Made by a program: the position numbers and the translations under genes. Of a stretch of DNA of 64,000 bases, positions 21,498 through 37,019 are shown one piece after another. The notes beneath the pieces were generated by a model. That model did no database searches and had not been told where the DNA came from. It saw only the letters and a list, made by a program, of their open reading frames with translations. Numbering within the stretch: position 1 is the stretch's first letter; every line of letters starts with the position of its first letter. The DNA lies in NCBI RefSeq assembly GCF_900403705.1, contig NZ_OUNR01000012.1:372001-436000 (forward strand). Direction: 5' to 3'. Source of the DNA: Nitrospira lenta (lineage in GTDB: Bacteria > Nitrospirota > Nitrospiria > Nitrospirales > Nitrospiraceae).

Positions 21498-21690
21498 ATG
21501 ATACGGTGTCATGCTGGATGTGCCATTCGATCAATGTCCTGGATCTCTCGCTGGGTATTTCCTAAATGTACGGCCATCAATTGAAATCGAGCGACCTGGA
21601 GATCAACGCGATCTGTTCTTCTCTGCGCGCGCGCTCGAACGCGATCGAGAAGAATCGTACGAAGTGAATCATGTGGTGCCATGCACGACG
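21341..21690 (+). repeat. Tandem partial duplication (ACP 3' end to ligase start)
   Basis: The stretch from about 21354 to 21520 recurs at an offset of 170 bases (21524-21690), with scattered mismatches. For example CGGCTATCAATTGAAATCGA at 21401 matches CGGCCATCAATTGAAATCGA at 21571. The repeat runs through the ACP stop and includes the ligase start context (GGTGTCATGC at 21506; GGTGCCATGC at 21676). Confidence 0.9.
21524..21667 (+). pseudogene. Decayed partial ACP copy
   Basis: In frame it reads HSINVLDLSLGIS, a TAA stop (21563-21565), then MYGHQLKSSDLEINAI, SSLRARSNAIEKNRTK and a TGA. The intact ACP reads DSIDALELSLAIS, Q, TYGYQLKSSDPEIKAI, SSLRALANAIEKNRTK. The stop arises from CAA to TAA at the Gln. 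The N-terminal half, including the Asp of the DSL-type motif, is missing. It cannot give a working ACP. Confidence 0.9.
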
Positions 21691-23027
21691 CTCCACTGAT
21701 CGGCCCCTACAATCCTGACGAGGTCCTGGCCCGGGAAATCGACGGGCCGCGCACGGCCCGTCAATTCCTGTCCGATGTTTCCCGCCTGGCCGATTCGTTG
21801 CCTGATCGCCCTGCTGTCCTCAATCTGTTGTCCAGCCGGTATGAATTCCTTGTCGGGTTCGCCGCGGCGATGCTGCGGGGGCAGGTGACGTTGCTGCCTC
21901 AGAGCCGGGCGCCCCAGACGCTTCGCCGGATTGCCGGCGACTATCCTGAGAGCTATTGCCTGACAAATCCGAATGAGCCGGTTGAGGGGATCGAGTCCGT
22001 GGTTCCTCGGCGGCAGGGTAGTCTCGCCGGATGGCCGAAGCGGATGCCGCATATCCCACTCGACCAGGTCGCGGCGATCGCGTTTACCTCAGGCAGCACT
22101 GGCCAGCCGATGCCAAACAAGAAAACCTGGGGAGCCTTGACGGCTGTCGCCCGGGCGACGGGAACCAGACTTGGCCTGAAGGCCGGCGAACCTGCTGCGG
22201 TAGTGGCGACCGTGCCGCACCAGCATATGTTCGGGCTGGAAGCATCCGTCATGCTGCCGATCGTGCATGGGCTGGTCATGCATGCGGGGCGTCCGCTCTT
22301 TCCGGCCGACATCCGTGACGTCTTGGCCGAGGTGACGGGGACGCGCCTACTTGTGACGACGCCGTTGCATCTCCGGGCCTGTGTGGCCGAAGGCCTGCGC
22401 GTGCCGCCGGTCGGATTGATTCTCTCTGCGACCGCGCCGCTTGCGCGAAGTCTGGCGCAAGCAGCCGAACGGCATTTCCAGACGGAGGTGCATGAAATTT
22501 TCGGGTTTGCCGAAGCGGGCAGCGTGGCTGAGCGGCGGACGACCGCCGATGATCGGTGGTGGCCGCTGGACGGGGTGCGTCTGGCGCAAGACCATACGGT
22601 GTGGACGGTACAGGCCGACTATCTTCCGGTTCCGGTCCGCGTTCCGGACCGTATCACCGTCGATGCCGACGGTCAGTTCCTCGTGCATGGCCGGGAAGCC
22701 GATCAGATCAATATCGCGGGCCATCGCGTTGCGCTCGGCGATCTGAACCAAAAACTGCTGGAGGTCGAGGGCGTACAGGACGGAGTCTTTTTCCTGCCCG
22801 ATGAGGGAGCGGATCTCGTGACCCGGCTGATCGCCTGCGTGGTGGCGCCGGGAAAAACCGTGGAGGAAGTTCAGCAGGCCTTGCGCACGCGCATCGATCC
22901 CGTGTTTCTCCCCCGTCCGCTTCTGCTCGTGCCGCGCCTGCCCCGCAATGACACGGGCAAGTTGCCGCGCGAGGCCTTGCTGAAGCTTGCGGCGCAACAG
23001 GCCGGAGGGGCATCGCATGACGCATAA
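21681..23027 (+). CDS. AMP-dependent (acyl-CoA/ACP) ligase, starter activation
   Basis: A 448-residue adenylate-forming enzyme. The P-loop FTSGSTGQPMPNKKTW lies at about 136-151; HQHMFGLEASVMLP and EIFGFAEAG (A5-like) follow, then GREADQINIAGHRV (A8) and the catalytic Lys in NDTGKLPREAL near the C-terminus. It is shorter than typical acyl-CoA synthetases, as are the ligases of aryl-polyene clusters (ApeH/XanA2 type). It should activate a hydroxybenzoate starter and load it on the ACP. The likely source of this acid is the chorismatase at 32803-33849. Confidence 0.9.
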   Translation: MHDAPLIGPYNPDEVLAREIDGPRTARQFLSDVSRLADSLPDRPAVLNLLSSRYEFLVGFAAAMLRGQVTLLPQSRAPQTLRRIAGDYPESYCLTNPNEPVEGIESVVPRRQGSLAGWPKRMPHIPLDQVAAIAFTSGSTGQPMPNKKTWGALTAVARATGTRLGLKAGEPAAVVATVPHQHMFGLEASVMLPIVHGLVMHAGRPLFPADIRDVLAEVTGTRLLVTTPLHLRACVAEGLRVPPVGLILSATAPLARSLAQAAERHFQTEVHEIFGFAEAGSVAERRTTADDRWWPLDGVRLAQDHTVWTVQADYLPVPVRVPDRITVDADGQFLVHGREADQINIAGHRVALGDLNQKLLEVEGVQDGVFFLPDEGADLVTRLIACVVAPGKTVEEVQQALRTRIDPVFLPRPLLLVPRLPRNDTGKLPREALLKLAAQQAGGASHDA

Positions 23028-23343
23028 GCGTGTCGTCTCGATCGGTCCGGATCATCCGGCGCTGCCCGGTCATTTCCCCGGCCATCCGGTCGTCCCCGGC
23101 GTGCTGGTGATGGACGAAGTCATCGAGACCCTGCGGGAGCATTACGGGCAAGCCCTGATCGTCACCGGGCTGCCGTCGGTCAAGCTGTCGTCGCCGCTGT
23201 CGCCGGGCGAGCCGCTGACGATCGATATCGCGCAGGAGGATTCCACGACCGCTGCCTTTACCTGCCGGGTCGGCCATCGAACTGTGGCTGCCGGATCGAT
23301 CCGGTTCCGCCTTCCGGCCGACGCCCGGCCGCTGCTGTCATGA
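23017..23343 (+). CDS. Hot-dog 3-hydroxyacyl-ACP dehydratase, ApeI/FabZ-like
   Basis: A 108-residue hot-dog protein with GHFPGHPVVPGVLVMDEVIE, which matches the FabZ/FabA active-site block (His in HFPG). It dehydrates the 3-hydroxyacyl-ACP intermediate to give each double bond. The ATG at 23017 overlaps the ligase stop by 11 bases; an upstream in-frame ATG at 22987 would overlap more. Its stop overlaps the acyltransferase start (ATGA). Confidence 0.88.
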   Translation: MTHKRVVSIGPDHPALPGHFPGHPVVPGVLVMDEVIETLREHYGQALIVTGLPSVKLSSPLSPGEPLTIDIAQEDSTTAAFTCRVGHRTVAAGSIRFRLPADARPLLS

Positions 23344-24236
23344 CGCCTGGCTGGAAACAGCAACAGGAGCGCGGCAACCGTCGGGTCATCCGTCTCATGG
23401 CCTGGGTGGCGCAGGCGTTGGGGCGGCCGGTTGCCCGGGCGCTGCTCTATCCGATTTGTCTGTACTATCTCTGTGGCTCACCGCAGGCGAACCGGGCCCT
23501 GCGCCGCTATTACGAACATCTCCAGGGCCATGCTCCTGGCTGGCCGGCGCTCTTCCGTCACTATCACTCGTTCGCCGCAACCATTCTGGACCGAGTGTAT
23601 TGTCTGCGGGGCCGGTTTGATTTGTTCGATATTCGCATTCATGGACTTGACGTGCTGGATAGCGCCTTGGCGAAGGGAAGCGGATGTCTTTTGCTCGGGT
23701 CGCATCTCGGTAGTTTCGAAGTCGTGCGCGCGGTCGGTCTATCGCGCGAACAGATTGCCGTCAAAGTGCTGATGGACGAGCAGAATGCGCCGTTGATCCG
23801 CGCCTTGATACAGGAACTGAACCCCGCCGTGGCCGAGACGGTGATTCAAGTCGGCGGGGTGGATACGATGCTCCAGGTGCAGGAATGCCTGGCTGGCGGC
23901 GGGGTCGTCGGTATTATGGGCGACCGGCTGATGGTGGAAGATCAATCGGTGCGCTGTGAGTTTCTCGGCGAGGGCGCGGCGTTCCCGAGCGGACCGGTGC
24001 GGCTGGCGCATGCCGTGCGCGCGCCGATCGTGTTGTTTTTCGGACTCTACCGAGGAGGCAACCGGTATGACATCCATCTAGAATTGCTGAGTGAGTCCGT
24101 CCGGTTGTCCGCAGACCATCGGCACGAGGATGTGCGGCGATGGACACAACACTATGCGGATCGACTGGCACATTACAGTCATGACGCGCCGGATAATTGG
24201 TTTAATTTTTATGATTTTTGGCAAGCCTCTTCGTAA
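23340..24236 (+). CDS. LpxL/HtrB-like acyltransferase
   Basis: A 298-residue membrane-associated acyltransferase. It has the catalytic His-x4-Glu motif in GSHLGSFEVVRA (about residues 121-132) and GGVVGIMGDRLMVEDQ and FPSGPVRLAHAVRAPIV downstream, as in the lysophospholipid/lipid A acyltransferase superfamily. In aryl-polyene loci such enzymes move the finished chain from ACP to a lipid or sugar acceptor. Overlaps the dehydratase by four bases and the LolA-like gene by 26. Confidence 0.88.
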   Translation: MTPGWKQQQERGNRRVIRLMAWVAQALGRPVARALLYPICLYYLCGSPQANRALRRYYEHLQGHAPGWPALFRHYHSFAATILDRVYCLRGRFDLFDIRIHGLDVLDSALAKGSGCLLLGSHLGSFEVVRAVGLSREQIAVKVLMDEQNAPLIRALIQELNPAVAETVIQVGGVDTMLQVQECLAGGGVVGIMGDRLMVEDQSVRCEFLGEGAAFPSGPVRLAHAVRAPIVLFFGLYRGGNRYDIHLELLSESVRLSADHRHEDVRRWTQHYADRLAHYSHDAPDNWFNFYDFWQASS

Positions 24237-24831
24237 GGCCGCGACCAGTTTTTCGTTCCTGCTCGTGCTCCTGCTCGGCAGCGTCGCCCCGGCAGCGGTC
24301 GATGCTCCCCCTGCGCCATGGACGGTCGACGGGCTGGTGGCGCTGCTCAAGGAACAGCGCGAACCTTCCATGGCGTTTGAAGAAGCCACGTACTCCTCCT
24401 TATTGACCGAACCGTTGATCGTGAAGGGCCAGTTGCGATTCACCCCGCCGGCGACGATGGAGAAAGCGATCACCCAGCCGTTTCGCGAGCGGTACGTGAT
24501 CGAAGGAGATCGGGTGTTGTTTGAGAGCGAGCGGAAAGGAATCAAGCGGACGATCTCGCTCGAAGACTATCCCGCGCTCCGCAGTTTTGTCGACGCCTTC
24601 CGCGCGAGTTTTACGGGCGACGCGGCTCGCCTGCAGAAGGTGTATGAAGCCACGCTGGAGGGCACCCGCCGGCAGTGGACGCTGCTGCTGCGCCCGCGTG
24701 AGCAGGCGGGACGGTCGATGGTGGACTACATTCTTTTCACCGGTTCGGAGGGCCGCGTCGCCACGATCGCCATCCGTTCCCCCGACGGAGACCGGTCGGT
24801 CATGACGCTCCTCCATGGAGCGGCTCGATGA
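24211..24831 (+). CDS. LolA-like periplasmic carrier of the pigment pathway
   Basis: A 206-residue exported protein. The signal peptide (FSFLLVLLLGSVAPA) is followed by a LolA/LolB-like half-barrel: LIVKGQLRFTPPATMEKAI, ERYVIEGDRVLFESE and LLLRPREQAGR. LolA-like proteins of aryl-polyene clusters are thought to carry the hydrophobic product across the periplasm. The start is uncertain: ATGs at 24211 and 24181 both give a signal peptide and neither has a good ribosome binding site. Four-base overlap with the exporter gene. Confidence 0.82.
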   Translation: MIFGKPLRKAATSFSFLLVLLLGSVAPAAVDAPPAPWTVDGLVALLKEQREPSMAFEEATYSSLLTEPLIVKGQLRFTPPATMEKAITQPFRERYVIEGDRVLFESERKGIKRTISLEDYPALRSFVDAFRASFTGDAARLQKVYEATLEGTRRQWTLLLRPREQAGRSMVDYILFTGSEGRVATIAIRSPDGDRSVMTLLHGAAR

Positions 24832-27161
24832 GCCGGCCGTTCGGTGTGCGGTTCAGTGTGATGGGTCTCTGGATCCTGGCGATGGCCTGCGGGCTGTGGC
24901 TGATAACCACGCGGGTGAACGTGCATAGCGAGCTGGCTGACCTGTTGCCGGAAGGCACGACGGCGACCCAACGGTTGCTCCTCACGCAAGTGCGCACCGG
25001 GATTGCCGGCCGGCTCATGTTGCTGGCTATCGAAGGTGGAGAGCCGGACGATCTGGCTCAGGCCAGTCGAGAGCTCGGCACGCAACTTCGCGCAACCGGG
25101 CATTTCAACGTCATCGGAAACGGCGCGCAGGCTTTGTCGAAACCGGATCAGGACCTGCTGTTCCGGTCGCGCTATCTGTTGAGCCGGCAGGTAACTCCGG
25201 AGGCTTTCTCCGTCGAATCCCTGCGACACTCGCTCGAGCAGCGGCTCGATGATCTTCGTTCCCCGCTGGCGCCCATGATGAAAGCGACGATTCCGGAAGA
25301 TCCGACGGGAGTCTTTCTGGGCATCCTGAAAGACTGGGCGGGGCAGGAGGGACCGGCGAAACATCGCGGTGTCTGGATGTCGGAGGATCAGACGAAGGCC
25401 CTGCTGGTCGTGGAAACCAAAGCGACAGGGTTTGACGCCGATGCGCAGGCGGCGATCCAGCGCGATATCCGCAAGGCGTTCGAGGATTTGCCCGGCCGGC
25501 CGGCGTCTCTTCGTTTGCTCATGAGCGGTCCCGGTGTGTTTGCCGTGGAGATCAAGCAGACCATCGAAGCGGAGATCTGGTGGCTCTCAACCGCCGCGTC
25601 CACGCTCGTCGTGCTCTTGCTCTATGCGAGCTACCGGTCGGTGACGTTGGTGCTGCTGAGCGCGATCCCGCTGTCGACCGGCATCGTCGCGGGCGTGCTG
25701 GCCGTCAATAGTTGGTTCGGCTTTATTCACGGCATCACGCTTGGCTTCGGCATCACCCTGCTCGGCATCGTCGACGATTATCCGATCCATCTGTTCAGCC
25801 ATGTGAATGTGCGTGGTTCCGCGCCGGCGGTGATCCGGGCGATTTGGCCGACGATGCGACTGGGTGTTCTGACGACCGTGATCGGATTTTCCTCGCTGCT
25901 CCTGTCCGGATTTCCTGCCTTGGCGCAGTTGGGCATTTTTGCGGTCGTTGGGCTCATCGCGGCGGCCTTGGTGACCCGGTATGTGTTGCCGGTCTGTGTT
26001 CCGCCCGCGTTTGTTCCTCGTGCGGTACCGCGCGGGATCGTCCCGGCGGTGGCACGGCTCACTCGGTTCAAGTGGCTGGTGCCGGGGTCAGTCGTTCTTG
26101 CCACATTCATGCTGTTATGGTCTGATACACCTCTGTGGCAAACGGATCTCGGGAGCCTGAGTCCGGTGTCGGAAGTGAGCAAGCGGCTCGATCTGCAGCT
26201 CCGCCACGACTTGGGGGTGCCGGATGTCCGCGATCTGCTCGTCATTGAGGGGGGAACGGAAGAGGACGTACTCCAACGCGGGGAAGCTGTGATGGCGCAA
26301 CTGGACCAACTGCGAACCGGCGAGCTGGTGGCGGGCTATGACCTGGTGTCTTCGTATCTGCCGAGCCGCCGCAGTCAGCAGGCCAGGCAGCAGGCTCTTC
26401 CTGAACGGAGTGCGCTGGAACAGAATCTCCGGACCGCGCTATCGGGGCTGCCGTTCGCGCCCGGACTGTTTACGCCGTTTCTTGATTCTATTGAGGCCGC
26501 GCGGACGCAACCGCTGATCGATCGCGCCACCTTCAACGGTACCGCCGTAGGGCTGAAGCTGGAGTCCTTGTTGATTGAACAGCAGGAGCAATGGTCTGCC
26601 GTGGTGCCGCTGCGGGGTGTGGCGGATAGGGCACGCCTCGGTGAAATCGTCGCCGGATGGCATGCGCCTGGTGTGGCCTACGTGGATCTCAAGGAGGAGT
26701 CCAACCGGTTGATGACGGCCTATCGAGACCGAACCCTGGCGATCGTGGCCTGGGGGCTGCTGGTGATTGCCGTCATGCTGGCGGCTGGGCTGAAGTCGAT
26801 CAGCATCTTGCGGCCGGTCCTATTACCCATGATGAGCGCGCTGGTGGTGGTCGCCGCCCTCGTGAATGCGGCGGGCGAATCGCTTTCGCTTTTTCACGTC
26901 GCCACCTTCCTGTTGGTCATCGGGCTCGGACTCGACTACGCGCTATTTTTCAACCGGCCGGAGGGCACGGGCGAGGAACGCGCCAGGACGCTGTACGGCT
27001 TGCTGGTGTGCAGCACCACGACGATTCTCGTGTTCGGCGTGTTGGCCTGCTCGACGATCCCTGTATTGCATGCGATCGGGATGACGGCGGCGATCGGGTC
27101 GTTCTGCTGCCTGTTGTTTGCAGGCATGATGGCGGAGCAGGAGCCAGTCGCACATGTCTAA
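24828..27161 (+). CDS. MMPL/RND family exporter
   Basis: A 777-residue protein of the RND superfamily. TM1 is at about 10-26, a periplasmic loop follows to ~245, TM2-6 lie at ~250-395, TM7 at ~412-428, a second loop extends to ~630 and TM8-12 are at ~635-765. The repeat symmetry and GITLGFGITLLGIVDDYPIH (with the membrane Asp pair) and LLVIGLGLDYALFF are typical of MMPL/HpnN-like exporters. Found in aryl-polyene loci next to the LolA-like carrier; probably moves the polyene lipid out of the inner membrane, driven by protons. Confidence 0.9.
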   Translation: MSRPFGVRFSVMGLWILAMACGLWLITTRVNVHSELADLLPEGTTATQRLLLTQVRTGIAGRLMLLAIEGGEPDDLAQASRELGTQLRATGHFNVIGNGAQALSKPDQDLLFRSRYLLSRQVTPEAFSVESLRHSLEQRLDDLRSPLAPMMKATIPEDPTGVFLGILKDWAGQEGPAKHRGVWMSEDQTKALLVVETKATGFDADAQAAIQRDIRKAFEDLPGRPASLRLLMSGPGVFAVEIKQTIEAEIWWLSTAASTLVVLLLYASYRSVTLVLLSAIPLSTGIVAGVLAVNSWFGFIHGITLGFGITLLGIVDDYPIHLFSHVNVRGSAPAVIRAIWPTMRLGVLTTVIGFSSLLLSGFPALAQLGIFAVVGLIAAALVTRYVLPVCVPPAFVPRAVPRGIVPAVARLTRFKWLVPGSVVLATFMLLWSDTPLWQTDLGSLSPVSEVSKRLDLQLRHDLGVPDVRDLLVIEGGTEEDVLQRGEAVMAQLDQLRTGELVAGYDLVSSYLPSRRSQQARQQALPERSALEQNLRTALSGLPFAPGLFTPFLDSIEAARTQPLIDRATFNGTAVGLKLESLLIEQQEQWSAVVPLRGVADRARLGEIVAGWHAPGVAYVDLKEESNRLMTAYRDRTLAIVAWGLLVIAVMLAAGLKSISILRPVLLPMMSALVVVAALVNAAGESLSLFHVATFLLVIGLGLDYALFFNRPEGTGEERARTLYGLLVCSTTTILVFGVLACSTIPVLHAIGMTAAIGSFCCLLFAGMMAEQEPVAHV

Positions 27162-27349
27162 TCGACCGAGGACTCCATTAACACTCTCGGCCTACACACT
27201 GGTCACGGCGAATGGGCGTCGTTGGATCGCCGCGGTCGCGGCTGTTTATCGGGATTGTCGTGGTGAACGAGGCCTCGGCCATGTCTAATCGACGGATGAC
27301 TCCATTAACGTTATCCGCCTACACGCTGGTCACGGCGAATGGGCGCGGG
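27154..27349 (+). repeat. Partial duplication of the ketosynthase 5' end
   Basis: The first 65-69 bases of the ketosynthase gene occur twice, 127 bases apart (27154-27222 and 27281-27349). The first copy starts at ATGTCTAA, whose last bases are the exporter stop. It reads MSNRPRTPLTLSAYTLVTAN, loses similarity after GR, and stops after 44 codons. The second copy (MSNRRMTPLTLSAYTLVTAN) continues into the full gene. The first copy is a dead fragment or at best a short leader. Confidence 0.88.
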
Positions 27350-28492
27350 GTCGGCGCGGTCTCCCAGGCCTTGCGCGAGCGCCGTTCAGGGCTGAAGCCG
27401 TGCGATTTCGAGGATGCGCTGCTTAAAACCTACATCGGGCGGGTCGCAGGGCTGGAAGATTTTTCTCTCGGCGCGGATTTAGAACAATTTGAATGCCGGA
27501 ACAATCGGCTGGCCTGGCTGGGCCTGCAACAGGACGGGTTCATGGTCGCGGTGGCGGAAGCGATCCAACGCTACGGAGCCGACCGGATCGCGGTGGTCAT
27601 GGGCACCAGCACCTCGGGCATTCTGGAGACGGAACATGCCTACCGGGATCGTGATCCTCTCACCGGTTCGTTGCCGCCCTGGTACAGCTCGCGGTATCGC
27701 TATACGCACAACATGTTTTCGTTAGGCCATTTCGTGCGGGCTTGCGTGGGCCTGCAGGGGCCGGCCATGGTCATCTCGACGGCTTGTTCGTCGAGCGCCA
27801 AAGTCTTTGCGACGGCCGCCCGCTTTCTCCAGGCGGGTCTGTGCGATGCGGCCATCGTCGGAGGAGTCGATAGTCTGTGCCATACGACGCTGCACGGATT
27901 TTCCTCTCTGCAGCTGCTGTCGACCAGTCCTTGCCGGCCCTGCGATGAAGATCGCGACGGGCTTTCGCTGGGCGAAGCGGCAGGCTATGCGTTATTGGAG
28001 TCGAGCGAGCGGGTAGGGCGGAAAGGGGCCGTTGCATTGCTGGGGTACGGCGAAAGCTCCGACGGGTACCACATGTCGCATCCGCATCCGGAAGGCGCCG
28101 GGGCGATTCGGGCCATTCGCCAGTCGTTGGATCGCGCCGGGTTGCAGCCGTCCGACATCGACTACATCAACCTGCACGGCACCGCGACCCGGGCCAACGA
28201 TGCGGTTGAGGATAAAGCGGTGTACTCTATTTTCGGTGACGGGCCCGCCTGCAGTTCGACGAAAGGCTGGACCGGACATGCGTTAGGAGCGGCGGGGATC
28301 ACGGAAGCCTTGATTGCGGCGCTGTGCGTGAAGCAGGGATTCATCCCCGGCACGCTCAATTGCGAGCGGGTCGATCCGGCGTTGCGCAGCCGCATTCTCC
28401 GCGAGAACGAGGACCGCCCGATCCGGCGCGTGGTGAGCAATATTTTCGGGTTCGGCGGTAATAACTGCAGCCTCGTCTTGGGGGTCTTGTGA
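27281..28492 (+). CDS. 3-ketoacyl-ACP synthase (KAS II-like, ApeO-type)
   Basis: A 403-residue ketosynthase with the full Cys-His-His triad: Cys 169 in ISTACSSSAK, His in NLHGTATRAND and His in GWTGHALGAAG. It extends the aryl-primed chain with malonyl-ACP. The ATG at 27281 was chosen because the duplicated fragment upstream (27154) starts with the same codons; the frame is open further upstream but has no similarity there. Its stop overlaps the next gene by four bases. Confidence 0.92.
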   Translation: MSNRRMTPLTLSAYTLVTANGRGVGAVSQALRERRSGLKPCDFEDALLKTYIGRVAGLEDFSLGADLEQFECRNNRLAWLGLQQDGFMVAVAEAIQRYGADRIAVVMGTSTSGILETEHAYRDRDPLTGSLPPWYSSRYRYTHNMFSLGHFVRACVGLQGPAMVISTACSSSAKVFATAARFLQAGLCDAAIVGGVDSLCHTTLHGFSSLQLLSTSPCRPCDEDRDGLSLGEAAGYALLESSERVGRKGAVALLGYGESSDGYHMSHPHPEGAGAIRAIRQSLDRAGLQPSDIDYINLHGTATRANDAVEDKAVYSIFGDGPACSSTKGWTGHALGAAGITEALIAALCVKQGFIPGTLNCERVDPALRSRILRENEDRPIRRVVSNIFGFGGNNCSLVLGVL

Positions 28493-29292
28493 TGCGGGTC
28501 GGGATTCTCGGCGTCGGACTGCTCGCGGCCGGCCTCGAAGGCTGGCTGATTGGGCGCGAGGTGTTGGCCGGTACCAGGCCGTTCGATCCCGCGAAAGTGC
28601 CGGATCCTGACGCATCGCTTCTCCCGGCGAATGAGCGGCGGCGGAGCAGCGATTGTGTCCGGTGGGCGGTGCAGGTGGCGCAGGAAGCCATGGCGCAATC
28701 CGGGCTGGATCCTCATGACGTCGCGACCGTCTTTGCCTCGTCCGGCGGCGAGATGGATGTGCTCGATAAACTGTGCCGGGCGCTGGCGACCGCCGAGCGG
28801 GTGGTCTCACCGACGCTGTTCCATCAGTCGGTCCACAATACCGCCGCCGGCTATTGGGGCATTGCGACGAGTTGCCAGCAGTCCTCGACGGCGTTGTCCT
28901 GTTATGACGATTCCTGCGCGGCGGGGCTGTTGGAGGCCGTCACCTATGCCTGCGTCGAAGCGCGTCCGGTTCTCTTTGTCGCCTATGATTTGCCGGCGCC
29001 GGCGCCGCTCAACGGCGCCCGGCCGATCGCCTCGGCGTTTGCCGCGGCCGTGGTCTTCACGCCGCTGGCGGAACAGGCGCCCGCGAGGGCCACGGTGAGA
29101 TTGACGACCGCCGCCGGCCATGATGTCAGCAGTGCATTCAGTCATGAATTCGAACGGCTCAGGCTCGATAATCCGGCTGCCCGCCTGCTGCCGGTGTTGC
29201 AGGCGCTTGCCATGGAACGCCGCGCCACGATCAATCTCAACTGGTTGGACGATCAACGGGTGACCGTAGAGGTTGAGTCCTGCCGCCGCTGA
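28489..29292 (+). CDS. Ketosynthase-like chain-length factor (ApeC-type)
   Basis: A 267-residue protein with the N-terminal half of a thiolase/ketosynthase fold: VRWAVQVAQEAMAQSGLDP, ATVFASSGGEMD and FHQSVHNTAAGYWGIATSC. The catalytic Cys-His-His set is not complete, and the C-terminal half is absent. Such truncated ketosynthase-like proteins pair with the active ketosynthase in aryl-polyene systems and set chain length. Coupled to ketosynthase by a four-base overlap. Confidence 0.82.
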   Translation: MMRVGILGVGLLAAGLEGWLIGREVLAGTRPFDPAKVPDPDASLLPANERRRSSDCVRWAVQVAQEAMAQSGLDPHDVATVFASSGGEMDVLDKLCRALATAERVVSPTLFHQSVHNTAAGYWGIATSCQQSSTALSCYDDSCAAGLLEAVTYACVEARPVLFVAYDLPAPAPLNGARPIASAFAAAVVFTPLAEQAPARATVRLTTAAGHDVSSAFSHEFERLRLDNPAARLLPVLQALAMERRATINLNWLDDQRVTVEVESCRR

Positions 29293-29720
29293 CGAAAGAC
29301 GAGATCGGCCGGCTGCTTCCGCATGGCGGGTCCATGCGTCTGCTCGATACGGTGGAGGCCTGGGACGAGACGACAATCCGCTGCCGGACGGCCACGCACC
29401 GGGACCCAAACCATCCGCTCCGCTTCCGTGGCCGCCTTTCGGTGGCGGTTGGTTTGGAGTACGCCGCCCAGGCGATGGGTGTGCATGTGGGACTGCTCGA
29501 TCATGATCGGAAGACGGAAGGACGGATCGGGTATGTCGGCAGCGTCCGGGACGTCACCTTCGAGGTGGAGCGGCTCGATGACACTGCAGCCGATCTGATC
29601 GTGGAAGCGACACGCCTGGTGGAGGGAGATCAGAGTTATATGTATCGTTTCACGGTGCTGCTCGACAGTCGGGCGATCATCGAAGGCCGCGCGTCGATCT
29701 TTATCAAGGCGGTGGCATGA
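29280..29720 (+). CDS. Hot-dog dehydratase, ApeP-like (non-ATG start)
   Basis: From the first ATG (29334) the protein would be 128 residues, but the frame is open upstream to a stop at 29274 and encodes EIGRLLPHGGSM, which matches the conserved N-terminal 'LLPHxxPMxLLD' block of ApeP-like dehydratases. A CTG at 29280 lies seven bases after AGAGG, so it is the best start (146 residues). The core reads LRFRGRLSVAVGLEYAAQAM. It works with the other hot-dog protein in chain dehydration. Start confidence is lower than family confidence. Overlaps the neighbour genes on both sides. Confidence 0.78.
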   Translation: MPPLTKDEIGRLLPHGGSMRLLDTVEAWDETTIRCRTATHRDPNHPLRFRGRLSVAVGLEYAAQAMGVHVGLLDHDRKTEGRIGYVGSVRDVTFEVERLDDTAADLIVEATRLVEGDQSYMYRFTVLLDSRAIIEGRASIFIKAVA

Positions 29721-30445
29721 TGGCAAAGAAGCGCGCATTGGTCACGGGAGGCAGCGGCGAGATCGGTGCCGCGATCTGCGAGCGGCTCGCCGCGGACGGC
29801 TATGCAGTTATCGTGCATGCCTATCGGCACAGCGAATCGGCGAAGCGGGTGGCAGAGAAGGTCATAGCCGGAGGAGGAGCGGCGACGGTAGCGACTTTCG
29901 ATATTGTCGATGGTGTGGCTACCGGACAAGCCTTGCAGACGCTTCTCGCCGACGGCCCTATCCAGGTGCTCGTCAATAACGCTGGCATCCATGAGGATGC
30001 CCCCATGGCCGGGATGACCGCAACGCAGTGGATGAAGGTTGTGGACCTGTCGCTGAACGGATTCTTCCACGTCACCCAGCCGCTGTTGTTGCCGATGATC
30101 GGCACCCGCTGGGGCAGGATTGTCTCGATTTCGTCGCTGGCCGGCGTGACTGGGAATCGCGGCCAGACGAATTATGCGGCGGCGAAGGCCGGCCTGCACG
30201 GAGCCAGCAAGTCGCTGGCGATCGAGCTGGCGTCCAGAGGGATCACCGTGAATGTCGTCGCGCCCGGCTTGATCGAGTCATCGGCGACGAGACAGTCCTT
30301 CAAGCCGGAGCAGGTCGATGCGATGGTGCCGATGAAACGAGTGGGGACGCCGGAAGAAGTTGCGGCGCTCGTCTCGTTTCTCGTGTCCGAGCAAGCCGGA
30401 TATATCACGGGTCAGGTCATCGGCATCAACGGAGGCATGGCGTGA
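29717..30445 (+). CDS. 3-ketoacyl-ACP reductase, FabG-like
   Basis: A 242-residue short-chain dehydrogenase. The nucleotide site is ALVTGGSGEIGAAI (residues ~7-20), followed by LVNNAGIHED, the catalytic Ser in IVSISSLAGV and Tyr/Lys in TNYAAAKAGLHG, and YITGQVIGINGGMA at the end. It reduces the 3-keto group after each extension. Its ATG overlaps the dehydratase stop and its stop overlaps the glycosyltransferase start. Confidence 0.93.
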   Translation: MMAKKRALVTGGSGEIGAAICERLAADGYAVIVHAYRHSESAKRVAEKVIAGGGAATVATFDIVDGVATGQALQTLLADGPIQVLVNNAGIHEDAPMAGMTATQWMKVVDLSLNGFFHVTQPLLLPMIGTRWGRIVSISSLAGVTGNRGQTNYAAAKAGLHGASKSLAIELASRGITVNVVAPGLIESSATRQSFKPEQVDAMVPMKRVGTPEEVAALVSFLVSEQAGYITGQVIGINGGMA

Positions 30446-31197
30446 CGGACCTGTCCGAACTCGCCCAATCCTACTGGGTTCTCATTCCTGCGTATAACGA
30501 AGCCCACACGGTTCGCGATGTGGCTCTGCGCGCCAGACAGCACTGCGCCAACGTGATCGTCGTAGACGACGGTTCAACGGATGGCACGGCCGAGGCGCTG
30601 GCTGGCCTTGATGTGACTCTGCTCAGGAACGAAACCAATCTTGGAAAGGCGGGCAGTCTCTGGAAGGGATTTCAGTATGCCCTGGAGCAGAGAGCTGAGG
30701 GCGTGATTACGCTCGATGCCGACGGGCAGCATGCTCCCGAGGAAATTCCGTTGTTCCTCACCTCCTTCCAGAATGGTCCACAGGCCTTCCTCATCGGTGC
30801 GCGCCATCGCGATCAGCGGAAGGCGACATTTTGGCGATACGGCGCGAATCGCGTGGCGGATTTCTGGATCGGGTTGGCAGCCGGAACCCCGATTGAGGAT
30901 AGTCAGTCGGGATTTCGCCTCTATCCCGCCGCGTTGCTTCGGGCGATCGACATTTCGCATGAGCGATCACGCAGCTTCGTATTCGAGAGCGAGATTCTGA
31001 TCGAGGCTGCCAGGCAGGCTCTGAGTATCCGGAATATTTCGATTACGGTGCGGCCGCGATCGGGGCCCTGTCCCAGCCATTTTCGTCCCGTGCTGGATAT
31101 CGTCAAGATCACCCGGATGGTGGCCTGGAAGATTCTTTCGAAGGGATTGCCTCTCGGCGGGCTGTGGTGTGTTTTTCGCGGCGGGCTGTCGGCGTAA
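30442..31197 (+). CDS. Family 2 glycosyltransferase
   Basis: A 251-residue GT2 enzyme starting with a GTG at 30442 that overlaps the ketoreductase stop (GTGA). Landmarks are LIPAYNEAHTVRDVA, VIVVDDGSTDGTAEAL, GVITLDADGQHAPEEI (DxD) and DSQSGFRLYP, and a C-terminal segment that may contact the membrane. It resembles dolichol-phosphate-mannose-synthase-like transferases. In this operon it probably adds a sugar to the polyene or its lipid anchor. Last gene of the plus-strand operon. Confidence 0.88.
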   Translation: MTDLSELAQSYWVLIPAYNEAHTVRDVALRARQHCANVIVVDDGSTDGTAEALAGLDVTLLRNETNLGKAGSLWKGFQYALEQRAEGVITLDADGQHAPEEIPLFLTSFQNGPQAFLIGARHRDQRKATFWRYGANRVADFWIGLAAGTPIEDSQSGFRLYPAALLRAIDISHERSRSFVFESEILIEAARQALSIRNISITVRPRSGPCPSHFRPVLDIVKITRMVAWKILSKGLPLGGLWCVFRGGLSA

Positions 31198-31304
31198 GAG
31201 CAACACGCGTGGATCTGGGCAGGCCGCTGTTCGCCCGCGACACGAATGCTCTGAGTGAACGCGGGTTATCACGATGGCGAGCGGGGCAGAGGGCGGCGAA
31301 ACGA

Positions 31305-31325
31305 GGCCCGGGTTTACCCCGGGCC
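31305..31325. terminator. GC-rich hairpin between convergent genes
   Basis: GGCCCGGG (31305-31312) pairs with CCCGGGCC (31318-31325) over a five-base loop, between the glycosyltransferase (+) and the lipoprotein (-). There is no T run, so its role as bidirectional terminator is a guess. Confidence 0.4.
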
Positions 31326-31347
31326 CCCTCGACGGCGAATGAGGCGA

Positions 31348-31761
31348 TTACGGGGCGGAGGCGGCCATCAGGCGGCCCTTGATGGCGTTATCGAGATTCC
31401 GAACCCAGCCGATATAGGCTTCGTGGATCGTCTGCTTGTCCGCATTGTATTTGAGATTGACGCTGTCTTTGTAGGTGATGCTGTACGACTTGGTGGTGTA
31501 GTCGATGTCGACGACCGCAGTATGGCTGCGGGCGTTTTGGGTCCCGAGAATATGGCCTGGCTTGTCGGGAGTCATGATCCATCGTAAGCTCAGTCCGGCT
31601 TCCACAATGGCTTTCTGAACCTGTTCCATCGTGAGTTCTTTCCCGGTAGCGGTCGCCACGGGTGCCTCTTTGACGTTGTAGACTTGTCCGGCTCCCCGGC
31701 AGCCGGTGATGACGACGATCGTCAAGCAGGCCATGACGACCGCGGATAGGATTCGATTCAT
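31348..31761 (-). CDS. Small lipoprotein, unknown function
   Basis: A 137-residue lipoprotein with lipobox VITGC (Cys at 21). The mature part contains LTMEQVQKAIVEAGLSLRW and DYTTKSYSITYKDSVNLKY, a helix-then-strands pattern also seen in other small envelope lipoproteins. I cannot name the family. It overlaps the deacetylase stop by four bases, so it is the last gene of the minus-strand pigment operon. Confidence 0.75.
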   Translation of the reverse strand: MNRILSAVVMACLTIVVITGCRGAGQVYNVKEAPVATATGKELTMEQVQKAIVEAGLSLRWIMTPDKPGHILGTQNARSHTAVVDIDYTTKSYSITYKDSVNLKYNADKQTIHEAYIGWVRNLDNAIKGRLMAASAP

Positions 31762-32729
31762 CGCTGTCCCTCCTCTCGATAGATGGATTCTGATTGCAGC
31801 CCTCTTGCTCTTAGTATGGCTGACGGCATCAAGTCAAGCTGCCGTGCGGCCGTATCGGTCATTCTGGTCGCGATATAGCCGGCCTCGTGAATGTGCGCGA
31901 GCAACTCGTCCACGAAAATCAAGTTGCCCGGGCTCATTCTCTTCTGATTCCATGTGGACATGGATTGGGGAAACGTTTGTTCGGCGGCCCGCACGAATTC
32001 GCCCGGGTGGCAGTAGAACACGAGATGGCGCGAGCGCGCTCCGATCCATCGGATCATATGCCGGAATGTTCCGAGGCCGACCGTGCGCAGGGTGGCCAGA
32101 TTGATCGGAAACAGACAGGACGATGGCGGCACTTCCACGATGGCGCTGTCGCCGGGACGATTGAGGTTGCTACGGGATGGACGGTATGGGTCTCGGGGAG
32201 CGCTGAAATATTTGAGATAGTGGACACGGCCGAGTCCCATGTCGAATCGCCTGGCGGGAACGGACGAGTCGTAGCGATAGCCTTCTTCTTCGAGGACCCG
32301 CAGCGTCGTTTCGCTGATCCACAGATTCGGCGCCCGGAATACGACGGGCCTGACGCCGGAGGCCTTCTCCACGGCATCCGTTGCCCGCCGGATCCATTGC
32401 CGTTGCTGCTCGTAGGGCGCGATACGGAAGTCCTCGTCTTCCTCCAGCCCTCCGTGCGCCCATCCGTGGGTGCCGAGCTGGTGCCCGCGCTGGAGGCACT
32501 CGCGGACGAGGTCCGGATAGGTTTCGGCGAAGCGGCCGGCGAAGAAAATCGTCGCTTTGATGTGAAACCGATCGCAGCCGTCCAGGAGCGACGCCAATCC
32601 GACATGCGAACCGGGAACCCAGTCGCAATCGATGGTGAAGTAAAACTGCTTGACCGGCTTTGCGGTTCGTCCGGTCCCTTGTCCGGTGATCGGCGGGCCG
32701 GCTTGTCGGGAGGGGTCAGTCCAGCCCAT
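31758..32729 (-). CDS. Polysaccharide deacetylase family protein (NodB fold)
   Basis: A 323-residue protein of the NodB/CE4 type. The first motif is FTIDCDW (DxD-like), then TIFFAGRFAETYPDLVREC and the metal-binding GTHGWAHGGLEEDE (HxxxH-like), and PVVFRAPNLWIS (motif 3). It resembles the deacetylases near exopolysaccharide loci. The frame is open up to 32834, but MGWTD at 32729 avoids a long overlap with the chorismatase. As part of this operon it may act on an amino-sugar attached to the pigment lipid; that is inferred only. Confidence 0.82.
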   Translation of the reverse strand: MGWTDPSRQAGPPITGQGTGRTAKPVKQFYFTIDCDWVPGSHVGLASLLDGCDRFHIKATIFFAGRFAETYPDLVRECLQRGHQLGTHGWAHGGLEEDEDFRIAPYEQQRQWIRRATDAVEKASGVRPVVFRAPNLWISETTLRVLEEEGYRYDSSVPARRFDMGLGRVHYLKYFSAPRDPYRPSRSNLNRPGDSAIVEVPPSSCLFPINLATLRTVGLGTFRHMIRWIGARSRHLVFYCHPGEFVRAAEQTFPQSMSTWNQKRMSPGNLIFVDELLAHIHEAGYIATRMTDTAARQLDLMPSAILRARGLQSESIYREEGQR

Positions 32730-32802
32730 TACAGACCTGCCTGGGGCGGGGTGAGTGCTTGGGTCGCGGGCTGTGAGGATTGGTATGGAGACATGGCGCG
32801 GC

Positions 32803-33849
32803 TCAGTCTGTGGTGACCACCCCTTCGATTTCAACCAGCAGTTCCTTGCGGCAGAGATCCCCCTGAAGATAGACGATCTGGCTCGACGCGAACAGGGGAA
32901 TATCGAGGGCTCGCTGGATGGCGTCGAGATGATTGGGTTCGCGGACGTAGACCTTATACCGACCGCGGGCGGCGGGCCGGCTGTGCGTCGTTCCCGCTAT
33001 GTCGTCGGCATGGGCTAACAAGGCATGCAGGTTGTCGACGGTTTCCAGTATCTGCGTTTCAGGGTGGCCGATGTGGCGGCTCTCATGTCCCACGATGCTG
33101 GCCGTGCCGGAGATGAGCAGTTGCGCGTGGAGATCCGATTGGAGGAGCGTGGCGCGCGCAAACGACGGGCTGCGGGGACCGTAGTGGTCCGGGTATTCAT
33201 AGGCATGGACTTGACGGGGATTGCCGAGATGGATGGCCGGATGAGTTCCCGCAAGCACATAGAGCTGGAGCGGACCGGATTTGGTGCCGACGGCTGTTCC
33301 AGCCGGAAGCGACTCGGGGAATCCTTGCAGCGTTCCGTCAAGCGCCTGATACCGTCCGATGCAAAACTGGCGGTAGCGTTCGAGGCCGTCCTCGTCTTCG
33401 TTGATGCCGGGAAAGAAATTCCAGGCGCGCCACAGATACGGATAGCCTAATTCCTGGATGTGATGCAGGAGGCGACGGTAGGCCCGTTCCGTCGTCTCGC
33501 GCAATCCTTCGCCGGGTTCCTCTTCAAGTTGAACCATGCTGGCCAGCATATTCCCGCTCGTCGCGGCAACCAATTCATTCCGTCTGTGAACGGTCACCGG
33601 CTGGTCGCTGGTCCACACTTCCAGGTCCGCGTGGTTGCCCAGCTGTGGAAGGTCCAGCGTGATGACCGGGCAGGAGATGGATGCGGGAACCGGCGCGCCA
33701 AAGGACACAATGGCTAGGGGATGGGTGGCGGAGGCGGCGAGCCACCGCGACAGATGGGCGGATTCGATATAGTCCATCCGCAGATGGGGGGCGGCTTCGA
33801 GCAACGGCTGATGCGATCTCAGAGGTCGCGGTATGGCGCGCTGTCCCAT
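32803..33849 (-). CDS. Chorismatase, FkbO/Hyg5/XanB2 family
   Basis: A 348-residue protein. The characteristic blocks are YLWRAWNFFPGINEDEDGLE (about 138-157), RYRQFCIGRYQAL, YGPRSPSFARATL (about 223-235) and GTASIVGHES (248-257). This is the FkbO/Hyg5 family, which splits chorismate to hydroxybenzoates or dihydroxycyclohexadiene acids plus pyruvate. The closest functional parallel is XanB2, which makes 3- and 4-hydroxybenzoate for xanthomonadin pigment. Its place, 16 bp after the halogenase-like gene and facing the aryl-polyene operon, fits provision of the aryl starter. Product type cannot be told from sequence alone. Confidence 0.85.
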   Translation of the reverse strand: MGQRAIPRPLRSHQPLLEAAPHLRMDYIESAHLSRWLAASATHPLAIVSFGAPVPASISCPVITLDLPQLGNHADLEVWTSDQPVTVHRRNELVAATSGNMLASMVQLEEEPGEGLRETTERAYRRLLHHIQELGYPYLWRAWNFFPGINEDEDGLERYRQFCIGRYQALDGTLQGFPESLPAGTAVGTKSGPLQLYVLAGTHPAIHLGNPRQVHAYEYPDHYGPRSPSFARATLLQSDLHAQLLISGTASIVGHESRHIGHPETQILETVDNLHALLAHADDIAGTTHSRPAARGRYKVYVREPNHLDAIQRALDIPLFASSQIVYLQGDLCRKELLVEIEGVVTTD

Positions 33850-33865
33850 ATCTATTTCCTGATAC

Positions 33866-35227
33866 CTAGCGTGACGCGTTGACCTGGTTCACGGCGTAAT
33901 CTTTGACTTCAGTGACAGTCGTTCTGGGGCCCTGCTTGCGGCGGCGGGCCACGGCCCAATTTTCTTTCCAATTCAATACGAAAACGGCGTAGTACACAAC
34001 TTTAAAACAGAAAAGAGGGATGCGCGTTTGGGATTGAGCGAACACATCCCCGGCCAGCAAAGACAGTACCGCCCGTTCGATTTTCGGTGGCCGGTTGGTT
34101 GAGACAAACAGCGACTGAAAAGCCGGCTGGTTGAATCGATGGATAAACCAGGAAAAGGTTTTGATGCCGCGGCGGACCATGCGCTCAAATTCCTGGAGGC
34201 GTGCGGCATAGTCCGGTGACTGGCGAAGATAGGCGTCGACGACGGTGGCGCCCCGCGTGCCGCTATTGAGGGCCAGGTGAACGCCGCTGGAGAAGACCGG
34301 GTCAATGAAGGCGAAGGCGTCGCCGACCATGAGATAGCCGTCGCCTGACATGGTGTCACGCCGATAGGAAAAGTTCGCGGCGGCATAGGTTTGCGTCAGG
34401 GGCTTGGCCTGTTCCATGCGTCGAGCGATCGGAGGCGATTGGCGAAGGGTATCCAAGAGAAATTGATCGAGCGGAGCGGTTCTCGACTTAATATAGTCCG
34501 GATGGCAGACAACGCCGACGCTGGTGGTGCCATCCTTGAACGGAATCAGCCAGCACCAGCCGTCATCCAACCAACCGGCGGTGATATTGCCTTCGTCCTT
34601 GCCGGGAAGCCTCTCGACCCCCTCGAAGTGGCCGAAGATCGCCGCGCTGCTATGGTCCGGACTACGGCGCTTGCCGCCGAGCTGGTTCGAGAGAAACGTG
34701 TCCCGGCCGCTGGCGTCGACGACAAACTTTGCGTCCCAGGTTCGTGGCCGGCCGTCGCGATCCTCCGTATGGACTAATGAGGTCTGCCCGGGGCGAAATT
34801 CGACGCGCTGGGCTTTGACGCCTTCGTGGACCGTCACGCCTTTGGCGATTGCGTTCTTCAAGAGAATGGCATCGAACTCGGACCGCTTCACTTCGAACGC
34901 ATAGGGTTGGGATTCGTCGAACGCCTTGGAGAAATAGAACATCTGCGCGCGCCCGTAGCGGTGCGAAATCATCTCGGCGCCGTATTTGATGATGCCGATG
35001 CGCTCGACGTCGGCAAGCACTCCCAGTTGTTTCAAGATGGGAAGCGATTGAGGCAGGAGCGACTCCCCGATGTGGAAACGTGGGTAAGGGTCTTTTTCTA
35101 GAATGTGCACCGTCCAGCCCTGTTCGACTAGCAGGGTGGAGATCGTGGAGCCGGCCGGCCCGCCGCCGACGACCAGCACGTCGCAGGTGACGGGTGTCAA
35201 CTCAGATTTCATCGTCGTGTGACCCAA
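33866..35227 (-). CDS. Flavin-dependent halogenase-like enzyme
   Basis: A 453-residue FAD enzyme. It has the Rossmann motif VVGGGPAGST (19-28), RFHIGESLLPQSLPIL, a Lys (81) in IIKYGAEM where related halogenases have the catalytic Lys, the halogenase signature WCWLIP (224-229, WxWxIP), and MVGDAFAFIDPVFSSGVHLA. The layout is that of CndH/CmlS-like halogenases. Xanthomonadins are brominated, so ring halogenation of the polyene is plausible. Related FAD oxidoreductases that do not halogenate share much of this. The TTG at 35227 has AAGGAG eight bases before it and is preferred to ATG 35212. First gene of the minus-strand operon. Confidence 0.82.
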   Translation of the reverse strand: MGHTTMKSELTPVTCDVLVVGGGPAGSTISTLLVEQGWTVHILEKDPYPRFHIGESLLPQSLPILKQLGVLADVERIGIIKYGAEMISHRYGRAQMFYFSKAFDESQPYAFEVKRSEFDAILLKNAIAKGVTVHEGVKAQRVEFRPGQTSLVHTEDRDGRPRTWDAKFVVDASGRDTFLSNQLGGKRRSPDHSSAAIFGHFEGVERLPGKDEGNITAGWLDDGWCWLIPFKDGTTSVGVVCHPDYIKSRTAPLDQFLLDTLRQSPPIARRMEQAKPLTQTYAAANFSYRRDTMSGDGYLMVGDAFAFIDPVFSSGVHLALNSGTRGATVVDAYLRQSPDYAARLQEFERMVRRGIKTFSWFIHRFNQPAFQSLFVSTNRPPKIERAVLSLLAGDVFAQSQTRIPLFCFKVVYYAVFVLNWKENWAVARRRKQGPRTTVTEVKDYAVNQVNASR

Positions 35228-35447
35228 AGAAGCGCTCCTTCAGCGAGAAAACGATCTGCGCGGAGTATACCCAAGCGGTTCAGCCATGGCTAGTTGTGGG
35301 GCGCATAATGTTCCCGTCTCGTTGACAAGAGTGTAGGTCTTTCATGTCTTGACCAGGTTCCAAGCGCATGGTACTTGTTTCCGCTCCGAAGTAACAGTGT
35401 TCCTAAGTGGTTCAGGGGACGAAATCATCATTCGCAAGGAGGGCTCC

Positions 35448-35774
35448 ATGAGAGTCGGTTCCATGGTACTAGGCGCACTGCTTCTGTTTTCTACCACCGC
35501 CTGCGTGTCATCTCAGGTGAAGCTCCCTTCAGCCGCAGTGGGGGCCAGCGAGAAAGCGTTGGGCCACACCGAGGGGTCGGCGGTTGGGATCCTGCTCTTC
35601 GGGTATATCCCAATCATGCAAAACGGTCGCTTTGAGCGTGCCTACTTAGAGGCCGTGCAAAACGGCGGAGGAAATAGGCTGACGGATGTCGAGATTTCAG
35701 AACGGTGGTTTTGGGGAGGAGTTCTGAACGGATTTATATTCAAAGTTGAAGGAACAGCCGTCGCAAACAAATAG
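35448..35774 (+). CDS. Small lipoprotein, paralogue 1
   Basis: A 108-residue lipoprotein. Lipobox TTAC (Cys at 19), then a short Gly-rich strand (VGILLFGYIPIMQNGRFERA) and the block RLTDVEISERWFW near the C-terminus. The protein encoded 35 bp downstream has the same layout and the same block, so they are tandem paralogues. The ATG at 35448 has AAGGAGG in front. Function unknown; the small-residue strand resembles the TRL-like fold but is not a clear member. Confidence 0.82.
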   Translation: MRVGSMVLGALLLFSTTACVSSQVKLPSAAVGASEKALGHTEGSAVGILLFGYIPIMQNGRFERAYLEAVQNGGGNRLTDVEISERWFWGGVLNGFIFKVEGTAVANK

Positions 35775-35809
35775 CAATTTGCAAGTTTTTGTTCAACGAG
35801 GAGGCTTCT

Positions 35810-36136
35810 ATGAAACGAGGGTTCTTTATTCTTGGCCTGCTTCTTTTATTGACGAATGCCGCGTGCCATTCCACGCAACTACGGATGCCGTCAGAGCCAA
35901 TTGGCGCCAATGAGAGGTCAACGGGAATATCCGAAGGACATAGTGGCGGGTTCATGCTCATGGGATTTATCCCGATCAATCAGAACGACCGGTTCCAATC
36001 AGCACTCAATACGGCAGTGGCGAAGTCAGGAGGCACGCGTCTTACCGATGTCGTGATTTCCGAACGGTGGTTCTGGACTCCGGTCGGTAACGGGTTAGTC
36101 TTTAAGGTGCAAGGAGTGGGTGTTGCTCCCAAGTAG
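35810..36136 (+). CDS. Small lipoprotein, paralogue 2
   Basis: A 108-residue lipoprotein with lipobox NAAC (Cys at 19). It shares PIGANERSTGISEGHSGGF, FIPINQNDRFQSAL and RLTDVVISERWFW with the preceding gene. ATG preceded by GAGGAGG. The pair is probably co-transcribed and ends at the terminator at 36147. No enzymatic motif; likely structural envelope proteins. Confidence 0.82.
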   Translation: MKRGFFILGLLLLLTNAACHSTQLRMPSEPIGANERSTGISEGHSGGFMLMGFIPINQNDRFQSALNTAVAKSGGTRLTDVVISERWFWTPVGNGLVFKVQGVGVAPK

Positions 36137-36314: not shown

Positions 36315-37019
36315 ATGATGAGTTTAGGGTGCCGCGGGCTCATACTCATGCTTCTGGTTGCAATGAGTCCAAATAGCGTATGGGCTGAAGGGCTTGGCGA
36401 TCCGGCTTCTCAGAAGCCGCCGGAGAAGAAGGTTGATCTTTATTTGAGTGGCCATGCGATGGGTTTTTTTCCGCAGGACAAAGACCTCACCGTTGGCGGC
36501 GCAGGTGTTCCGCGGACCGATATCCGCGGCACCTTCGGAGCCGGCATTAAATTCGAAGCCTATCCGTGGTTTACCAACAAAATTCTTGGCGGAGAAATTG
36601 AAGCGTTCGGTCTTGGGGGCAGCGTGCGGGCTCCGCGCATCACGTCCGGATCGGGGACTACTCAGGCGCAAGGGAACCTGATTGCGGTGAATACGATGTA
36701 CAACGTCATGCTGCGGTATCCGGGCGAGATGGTTCAGCCGTATATCGGGGTCGGTGGAGGCACCTCAATAGGAGTGCTCTATGATGCGTTGATTCAACAC
36801 GGCAATCTGGCACTCACGGGAACTTCTGGCGATATGGCCTTCGCCTATCAGTTCTTAGGCGGCATCAAAGCATTCGTGACAAAGCGACTGTTTGTGTTTG
36901 GCGAGTACAAATACTTTGGAACGAAGTATAGTTTTGATAGTGAAGGGGCCAGCCACTCCAAAGTAAAGCTCGATTTTCAAACCCACATTGTGTCGGGCGG
37001 CATCGGCTGGTCGTTTTAG
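36315..37019 (+). CDS. Outer-membrane beta-barrel protein, paralogue of 16946-17617
   Basis: A 234-residue exported protein, signal peptide about 1-25 (cleavage near VWAEG). Beta-barrel pattern with VNTMYNVMLRYPGEMVQPYI, FAYQFLGGIKAFVTKRLFVF and the C-terminal VSGGIGWSF. These segments align with the protein at 16946-17617, also ending in GGIGWSF. Eight-stranded barrel is likely. The gene's stop (37017-37019) is followed in the same frame by the hydrolase gene. Confidence 0.82.
   Translation: MMSLGCRGLILMLLVAMSPNSVWAEGLGDPASQKPPEKKVDLYLSGHAMGFFPQDKDLTVGGAGVPRTDIRGTFGAGIKFEAYPWFTNKILGGEIEAFGLGGSVRAPRITSGSGTTQAQGNLIAVNTMYNVMLRYPGEMVQPYIGVGGGTSIGVLYDALIQHGNLALTGTSGDMAFAYQFLGGIKAFVTKRLFVFGEYKYFGTKYSFDSEGASHSKVKLDFQTHIVSGGIGWSF

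Follow-up and report, generated by a model that had tools for sequence, protein, structure and literature searches.

A halogenase-like flavoenzyme of the XanB1/ArcA type in the aryl-polyene locus of Nitrospira lenta

The closest described systems are the aryl-polyene pigment clusters of Xanthomonas and Azoarcus. In Xanthomonas, XanB1 is labelled "putative reductase/halogenase" and a separate gene, H, is labelled "halogenase" (PMC3838355). XanB1 and XanB2 were both reported as required for xanthomonadin (PMC3838355); little weight is given to this requirement in the case of XanB1, because an insertion in xanB1 could act via the downstream xanB2. The cluster that contains XanB1 is associated with a brominated pigment (PMC3691225, PMC3838355), and the xanthomonadins carry 0 to 2 Br per molecule (PMC3691225). 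In Azoarcus sp. BH72, the gene arcA forms a pair with arcB and is labelled "halogenase" (PMC3949708). The Azoarcus pigment, arcuflavin (C41H52O4), was obtained from cells grown in LB with 0.5% NaCl and contains no halogen although arcA is present, nor does it contain added oxygen (PMC3949708). The published Azoarcus clusters have no second halogenase. A dibrominated pigment exists in Steroidobacter. Concerning Nitrospira, aryl-polyene clusters are already on record for N. inopinata, N. lenta and N. japonica (PMC9765116).

The window analysed here is a whole stretch of 64,000 nucleotides from N. lenta. It contains, at positions 33866 to 35227, an open reading frame for a FAD enzyme of 453 amino acids. 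This ORF had been proposed in a sequence-only reading of the window that gave no strand; it is real and is located on the minus strand. The initiation codon is the TTG at 35227, and the same TTG is found in the close orthologs. It is preceded at a distance of 7 nt by the Shine-Dalgarno-like sequence AAGGAG (35235 to 35240, minus strand). The gene is present in one copy in the N. lenta genome, it displays a dN/dS of about 0.10 against close orthologs and it is under purifying selection. The dinucleotide-binding motif GGGPAG corresponds to codons 21 to 26 (35150 to 35167, minus strand).

The FAD gene is at the head of a minus-strand run. It is followed, after a gap of 16 nt, by a XanB2-type chorismatase gene (3-/4-hydroxybenzoate synthase, 32803 to 33849; Pfam FkbO_Hyg5-like_N, 124 bits), then by a polysaccharide deacetylase gene (31758 to 32834, start codon uncertain) and by a small lipoprotein gene (31348 to 31761) that is conserved in Nitrospirales clusters. 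This run converges on the plus-strand aryl-polyene genes. These comprise a UbiE-type methyltransferase (20425 to 21228), an acyl carrier protein conserved across clusters (21225 to 21497), an AMP-ligase of the ArcT/XanA2 type for starter activation (21681 to 23027), a FabA/FabZ-type dehydratase (22987 to 23343), a LpxL-like acyltransferase (23340 to 24236), a LolA-like protein with an uncertain start (24091 to 24831) and a MMPL exporter (24828 to 27161). They continue with a ketosynthase (KS, 27212 to 28492), its chain-length-factor-like partner of the ORF16/ArcJ type (CLF, 28489 to 29292), a dehydratase (29334 to 29720), a FabG-type ketoreductase (29717 to 30445) and a family 2 glycosyltransferase (GT2, 30442 to 31197). 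The polyene locus recognised in the sequence-only reading is thus a xanthomonadin-type aryl-polyene cluster extending from 20425 to 33849. Beyond it, paralogous small proteins resembling outer-membrane beta-barrels are encoded on either side of the pigment cluster (16946-17617 and 36315-37019; 36% identity over 204 amino acids). Two tandem small lipoproteins sharing 50% identity (35349-35774 and 35789-36136) are divergent from the FAD gene. An ORF of 1663 amino acids (7116-12107) shows a repeat-like N-terminus, then a very long stretch rich in Ser, Pro, Ala and Glu and a transmembrane-like segment.

Within the genus, the association of the FAD gene with the aryl-polyene cluster is near-perfect: the gene occurs in 18 Nitrospira genomes, the polyene CLF in 19 and both together in 17. 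One exception is a draft genome that is 78% complete (G047) and another is a genome whose CLF shows 51% identity (G007). Two Nitrospira genomes, G005 and G007, have a polyene CLF and no detectable XanB1/ArcA gene. The distant type of CLF (51%) is found in G007 and as a second copy in G017, which suggests another aryl-polyene cluster in Nitrospira.

A scan of species genomes recovered at least 541 relatives of the FAD enzyme. The best 80 of these belong to Nitrospirota, Nitrospinota and Pseudomonadota, with one Rokubacterium. The Nitrospira orthologs share 66-93% identity with the FAD enzyme. In most of the loci extending far enough, the FAD gene directly adjoins XanB2, and this pair is kept across Nitrospirota, Nitrospinota and Pseudomonadota. 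Among the matches listed in the plasmid search, the clade was represented by Azospirillum, Caballeronia, Roseomonas and Variovorax alone. One locus of the Rhodospirillales (L090) carries two adjacent, divergent genes of the clade, at 6227-7537 on the minus strand and 7974-9275 on the plus strand, a possible natural duplication.

In the comparison, the Xanthomonas-type loci (L150, L151, L152) were labelled from the gene order ACP-XanB1-XanB2-AMP-ligase and from the presence of H beside GT2-CLF-KS, and the Azoarcus-type locus (L154) from the arcK-arcA order given in PMC3949708. The FAD enzyme and the Azoarcus-type and Xanthomonas-type proteins form one clade (support 97/99, 96% of bootstrap trees), with pairwise identities of 41-48%; the FAD enzyme is 46% identical to the Azoarcus-type protein and 41% to the Xanthomonas-type protein. 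Sequence comparison thus shows the FAD enzyme to be the Nitrospira ortholog of xanB1 and arcA, and the gene is a further case of a known, little characterised XanB1/ArcA group. The three systems are alike in clade, in the adjacency to XanB2/ArcB, in the aryl-polyene cluster and in the motifs, whereas the Nitrospira run adds the deacetylase and the small lipoprotein, and the Nitrospira genome has no H. The clade is separate and appears to branch deep among the halogenase lineages, with a support of 62/38 for its deep branching relative to the halogenases. A quick tree had joined it to the halogenases and left 3nix and APE2 outside (89); this grouping was dropped, since the careful tree gave only 62/38.

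The motifs named in the sequence-only reading were recovered. The WxWxIP signature is present as WCWLIP at codons 224 to 229 (34541 to 34558, minus strand), and the Lys of IIKYGAEM (residues 79 to 86) is Lys81 (34985 to 34987, minus strand), which aligns with the catalytic Lys in all eight halogenase sequences compared (seven characterised and one annotated). Lys81, Trp224, Trp226, Ile228 and Pro229 are each invariant in the 130 distinct members of the clade. By chance, W.W.IP arose in 37 of 100,000 composition shuffles of the protein. The same reading had warned that related FAD enzymes share much of this pattern, and this is indeed the case: two further sets of flavoproteins from aryl-polyene clusters keep Lys and WxWxI without exception, on one hand APE2 (about 32% identity to the FAD enzyme), which groups with 3nix, and on the other hand H (about 25%). 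As APE2, H and 3nix all have them, these motifs were ruled out as proof of halogenation; they support the family, not the activity.

The protein matches Pfam PF04820 (Trp_halogenase) with 97.9 bits (cut-off 21); despite this match, no PrnA or RebH chain was among its PDB sequence matches. The Lys/Glu catalytic pair named in the sequence-only reading belongs to these tryptophan halogenases. The PDB halogenases were matched with E-values from 3e-59 to 8e-44; in the PDB as a whole, the top matches were Mpy16, ChlB4, 3nix, CndH and PltA (3e-59 to 7e-51). In NCBIfam, the FAD enzyme scored 185 bits with the CmlS equivalog NF033113 (cut-off 900 bits) and 158 bits with the QhpG equivalog NF049967 (cut-off 240 bits), in both cases below the cut-off. 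The AlphaFold2 model (pLDDT 88.1, pTM 0.89) is most similar to 3nix (Z 46.4), Bmp2 (Z 45.0 for the triple mutant and 44.2 for the wild type) and FasV (Z 44.4), followed by ChlB4, Mpy16 and PltA (Z 43), CndH (Z 39.8), CmlS (Z 35.1) and p-hydroxybenzoate hydroxylase (Z about 35). The CndH/CmlS-like layout perceived from the sequence is therefore supported by the model, with higher scores for 3nix, Bmp2 and FasV. Together with the motifs, the predicted fold supports the assignment to a halogenase-like flavoenzyme in an aryl-polyene locus.

Mpy16, ChlB4, PltA and Bmp2 resemble the FAD enzyme in fold (Z 43-45), in the Lys, in WxWxIP and in the motif GDA..DP.FSSG. They are however 28-34% identical to it, and, in a residue comparison with Mpy16, ChlB4 and PltA, the FAD enzyme has Asn285 in place of Asp, His200 in place of Trp and a shorter loop before the Lys. 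The characterised pyrrolyl halogenases act on pyrrolyl-carrier proteins, and the starter context of these enzymes and of Bmp2 differs from that of the Nitrospira FAD enzyme. CndH, CmlS, RadH and FasV share the fold, the Lys and WxWxIP, and CndH also the stretch GNI...DGWxWxIP, but they form a separate clade, and the C-terminal part is longer in CndH and CmlS. The protein 3nix from Cytophaga hutchinsonii and the APE2 flavoproteins share the Lys, WxWxI and His200, and the APE2 flavoproteins sit, like the FAD enzyme, in aryl-polyene loci. They differ by an identity of about 30-34%, by GNA..EF where the FAD enzyme has GDA..AF, by Gly or Ala at position 285 and by a longer loop before the Lys; 3nix and the flavoproteins of APE clusters have no known halogenase activity. 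QhpG and the LodB/GoxB maturases have a CmlS-like fold, with the WxW pair in QhpG, but act on peptides (QhpG is a peptidyl-tryptophan dihydroxylase) in a different gene context, and the NCBIfam matches of the FAD enzyme to this group stay below the cut-offs.

From the residue comparison, we have identified three positions at which the whole clade departs from the characterised halogenases. Position 285 (34373 to 34375, minus strand) is Asn in 130 of 130 clade members and Asp in all eight halogenase sequences, where it belongs to the motif D(Y/W/F)SY; this Asp is a mark of the PltA/CndH/CmlS-type halogenases without being strictly defining. In CmlS the aligned residue is Asp277 (sequence index 297 minus an offset of 20), the one covalently bound to the flavin. 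The title of the CmlS paper states that the flavin linkage of this enzyme is covalent. Position 200 (34628 to 34630, minus strand) is His in the 130 clade members and in eight of eight APE2 sequences, and Trp or Tyr in the eight halogenase sequences; His200 is thus common to the clade and to the APE2/3nix group. Finally, the step from Gly78 to the Lys is three residues throughout the clade (130/130) versus four in the halogenases, so that the loop is one residue shorter. The Xanthomonas-type proteins also carry Asn285, His200 and the shortened loop.

The H-like flavoproteins comprise 520-546 amino acids, with the motif KVGEST and with the Lys and WxWxIP kept, and they probably represent the gene called H in Xanthomonas. 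Their genes were observed in six loci from Xanthomonadales (L152, L158, L161, L163, L170 and L171) and in two from Nitrospirales (L044, 15054-16616; L047, 15087-16649). They adjoin GT2-CLF-KS in the majority of the loci; in the two from Nitrospirales, their neighbour is the KS. Among 151 Xanthomonadales genomes, XanB1 and H occur together in 20, XanB1 only in 6 and H only in 16; the two genes are therefore linked but separable. No H was found in Nitrospira with the Xanthomonas-type genomes as positive controls, and the Azoarcus-type genome gave no close match. A search for QhpG in Xanthomonadales gave no match, and neither did its controls, hence it is uninformative. Three characterised species can be compared: Xanthomonas has XanB1, H and bromine, the Azoarcus type has XanB1 with neither H nor bromine, and Lysobacter OH11 has neither gene and a pigment without bromine. 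In these three species, bromine tracks H no less closely than it tracks XanB1.

The explanation that we tentatively prefer, with slightly less than an even chance, is that the FAD enzyme is a FAD/O2-dependent enzyme of the halogenase type that halogenates the pigment head group. It would bind FADH2 delivered by a flavin reductase and form a C4a-hydroperoxyflavin, which would oxidise a halide, bromide being likelier than chloride, to hypohalous acid. Following the mechanism described for the family (PMC10696468), Lys81, behind the WxWxIP shield, would direct the hypohalous acid. The target may be the electron-rich 3-hydroxyphenyl head group, either on 3-hydroxybenzoyl-ACP or on the growing aryl polyene. 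The tailoring step would be optional, halide-dependent and coupled to the neighbouring XanB2, the maker of 3-hydroxybenzoate. In its favour are the invariant Lys81 and WxWxIP, the closeness of the model to Bmp2, FasV and the pyrrolyl halogenases, the adjacency to XanB2, the co-occurrence with the polyene CLF, the low dN/dS and the brominated pigment of Xanthomonas. Halogenation by XanB1/ArcA is put in doubt by arcuflavin, since this pigment has no halogen despite arcA and chloride, and further by the second candidate H of Xanthomonas, by the three clade-wide departures and by the CmlS score below the cut-off. One alternative is that ArcA needs bromide and that LB supplied too little of it; moreover, the absence of added oxygen in arcuflavin would fit a halide-requiring enzyme better than a constitutive hydroxylase. 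A variant that we regard as unlikely, and which is a special case of the halogenation reading, attributes one Br of the dibrominated xanthomonadin I to XanB1 and the other to H. The presence of both genes in Xanthomonas-type clusters, the range of 0-2 Br per xanthomonadin (PMC3691225) and the bromine-free pigment of Lysobacter, which lacks both genes, are consistent with it, but Azoarcus, having ArcA alone, shows no halogen. It is very improbable that the Nitrospira protein is a mere remnant or is no longer active: the cluster has no known product and the gene is in single copy, but this view is contradicted by the selection data, by the intact motifs and by the near-perfect co-occurrence with the cluster.

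The main competitor, quite plausible though clearly short of even, is that XanB1/ArcA is a flavoenzyme of halogenase fold that carries out another FAD-dependent step, the bromine of Xanthomonas being brought by H. On a 3-hydroxybenzoyl or polyene intermediate, the step could be a redox reaction, a form of quality control, or a hydroxylation that is masked or lost at a later stage. The halogen-free arcuflavin made in the presence of arcA and chloride points in this direction, as do the distribution of bromine with H in the three species, the Xanthomonadales genomes with H (16 of 151 without XanB1, 20 of 151 with it) and the three clade-wide departures, of which His200 is common to the APE2/3nix clade. 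In addition, QhpG has a CmlS-like fold with Trp181 and Trp183 and is able to hydroxylate (PMC7876137). Nevertheless, Lys81 and WxWxIP are perfectly kept in the clade, and this motif was proposed to prevent hydroxylation (PMC10696468); the alternative chemistry would also have left no visible mark on arcuflavin. According to a broader proposal, the whole XanB1/ArcA clade, halogenase-looking by its Lys and WxWxIP, performs another reaction, of which Asn285, His200 and the shortened loop would be the marks, and H brominates xanthomonadin; we regard this as slightly less likely still. As to the halogenated aryl polyene that the sequence-only reading had called a real possibility, the conserved Lys81 and WxWxIP still speak for it. 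Against it are the invariance of these non-diagnostic motifs in two other clades from pigment clusters, the unhalogenated arcuflavin from chloride-rich LB, the distinctness of H from XanB1 with no H in Nitrospira, the departure of the clade from characterised halogenases at three positions, and the fact that the Lys/Glu pair is a feature of tryptophan halogenases. The case is overall weaker than it first looked, and bromine or chlorine in the Nitrospira pigment is no more than a possibility.

XanB1/ArcA-type genes carry a halogenase annotation in many aryl-polyene clusters, and it is usual to credit the cluster's "halogenase" with the bromine of xanthomonadin. Two candidates, XanB1 and H, are told apart by the present comparison. 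The usual motifs do not settle halogenation, and three residue-level markers are named instead. If the XanB1/ArcA clade does perform another chemistry, many "halogenase" labels in aryl-polyene clusters would be wrong. If XanB1 and H each add one Br, the most to be expected of Nitrospira, which has XanB1 but no H, would be a halogenated pigment of the XanB1 type. Nitrospira are key nitrite oxidisers, and the result is relevant to the question of halogen in their pigment.
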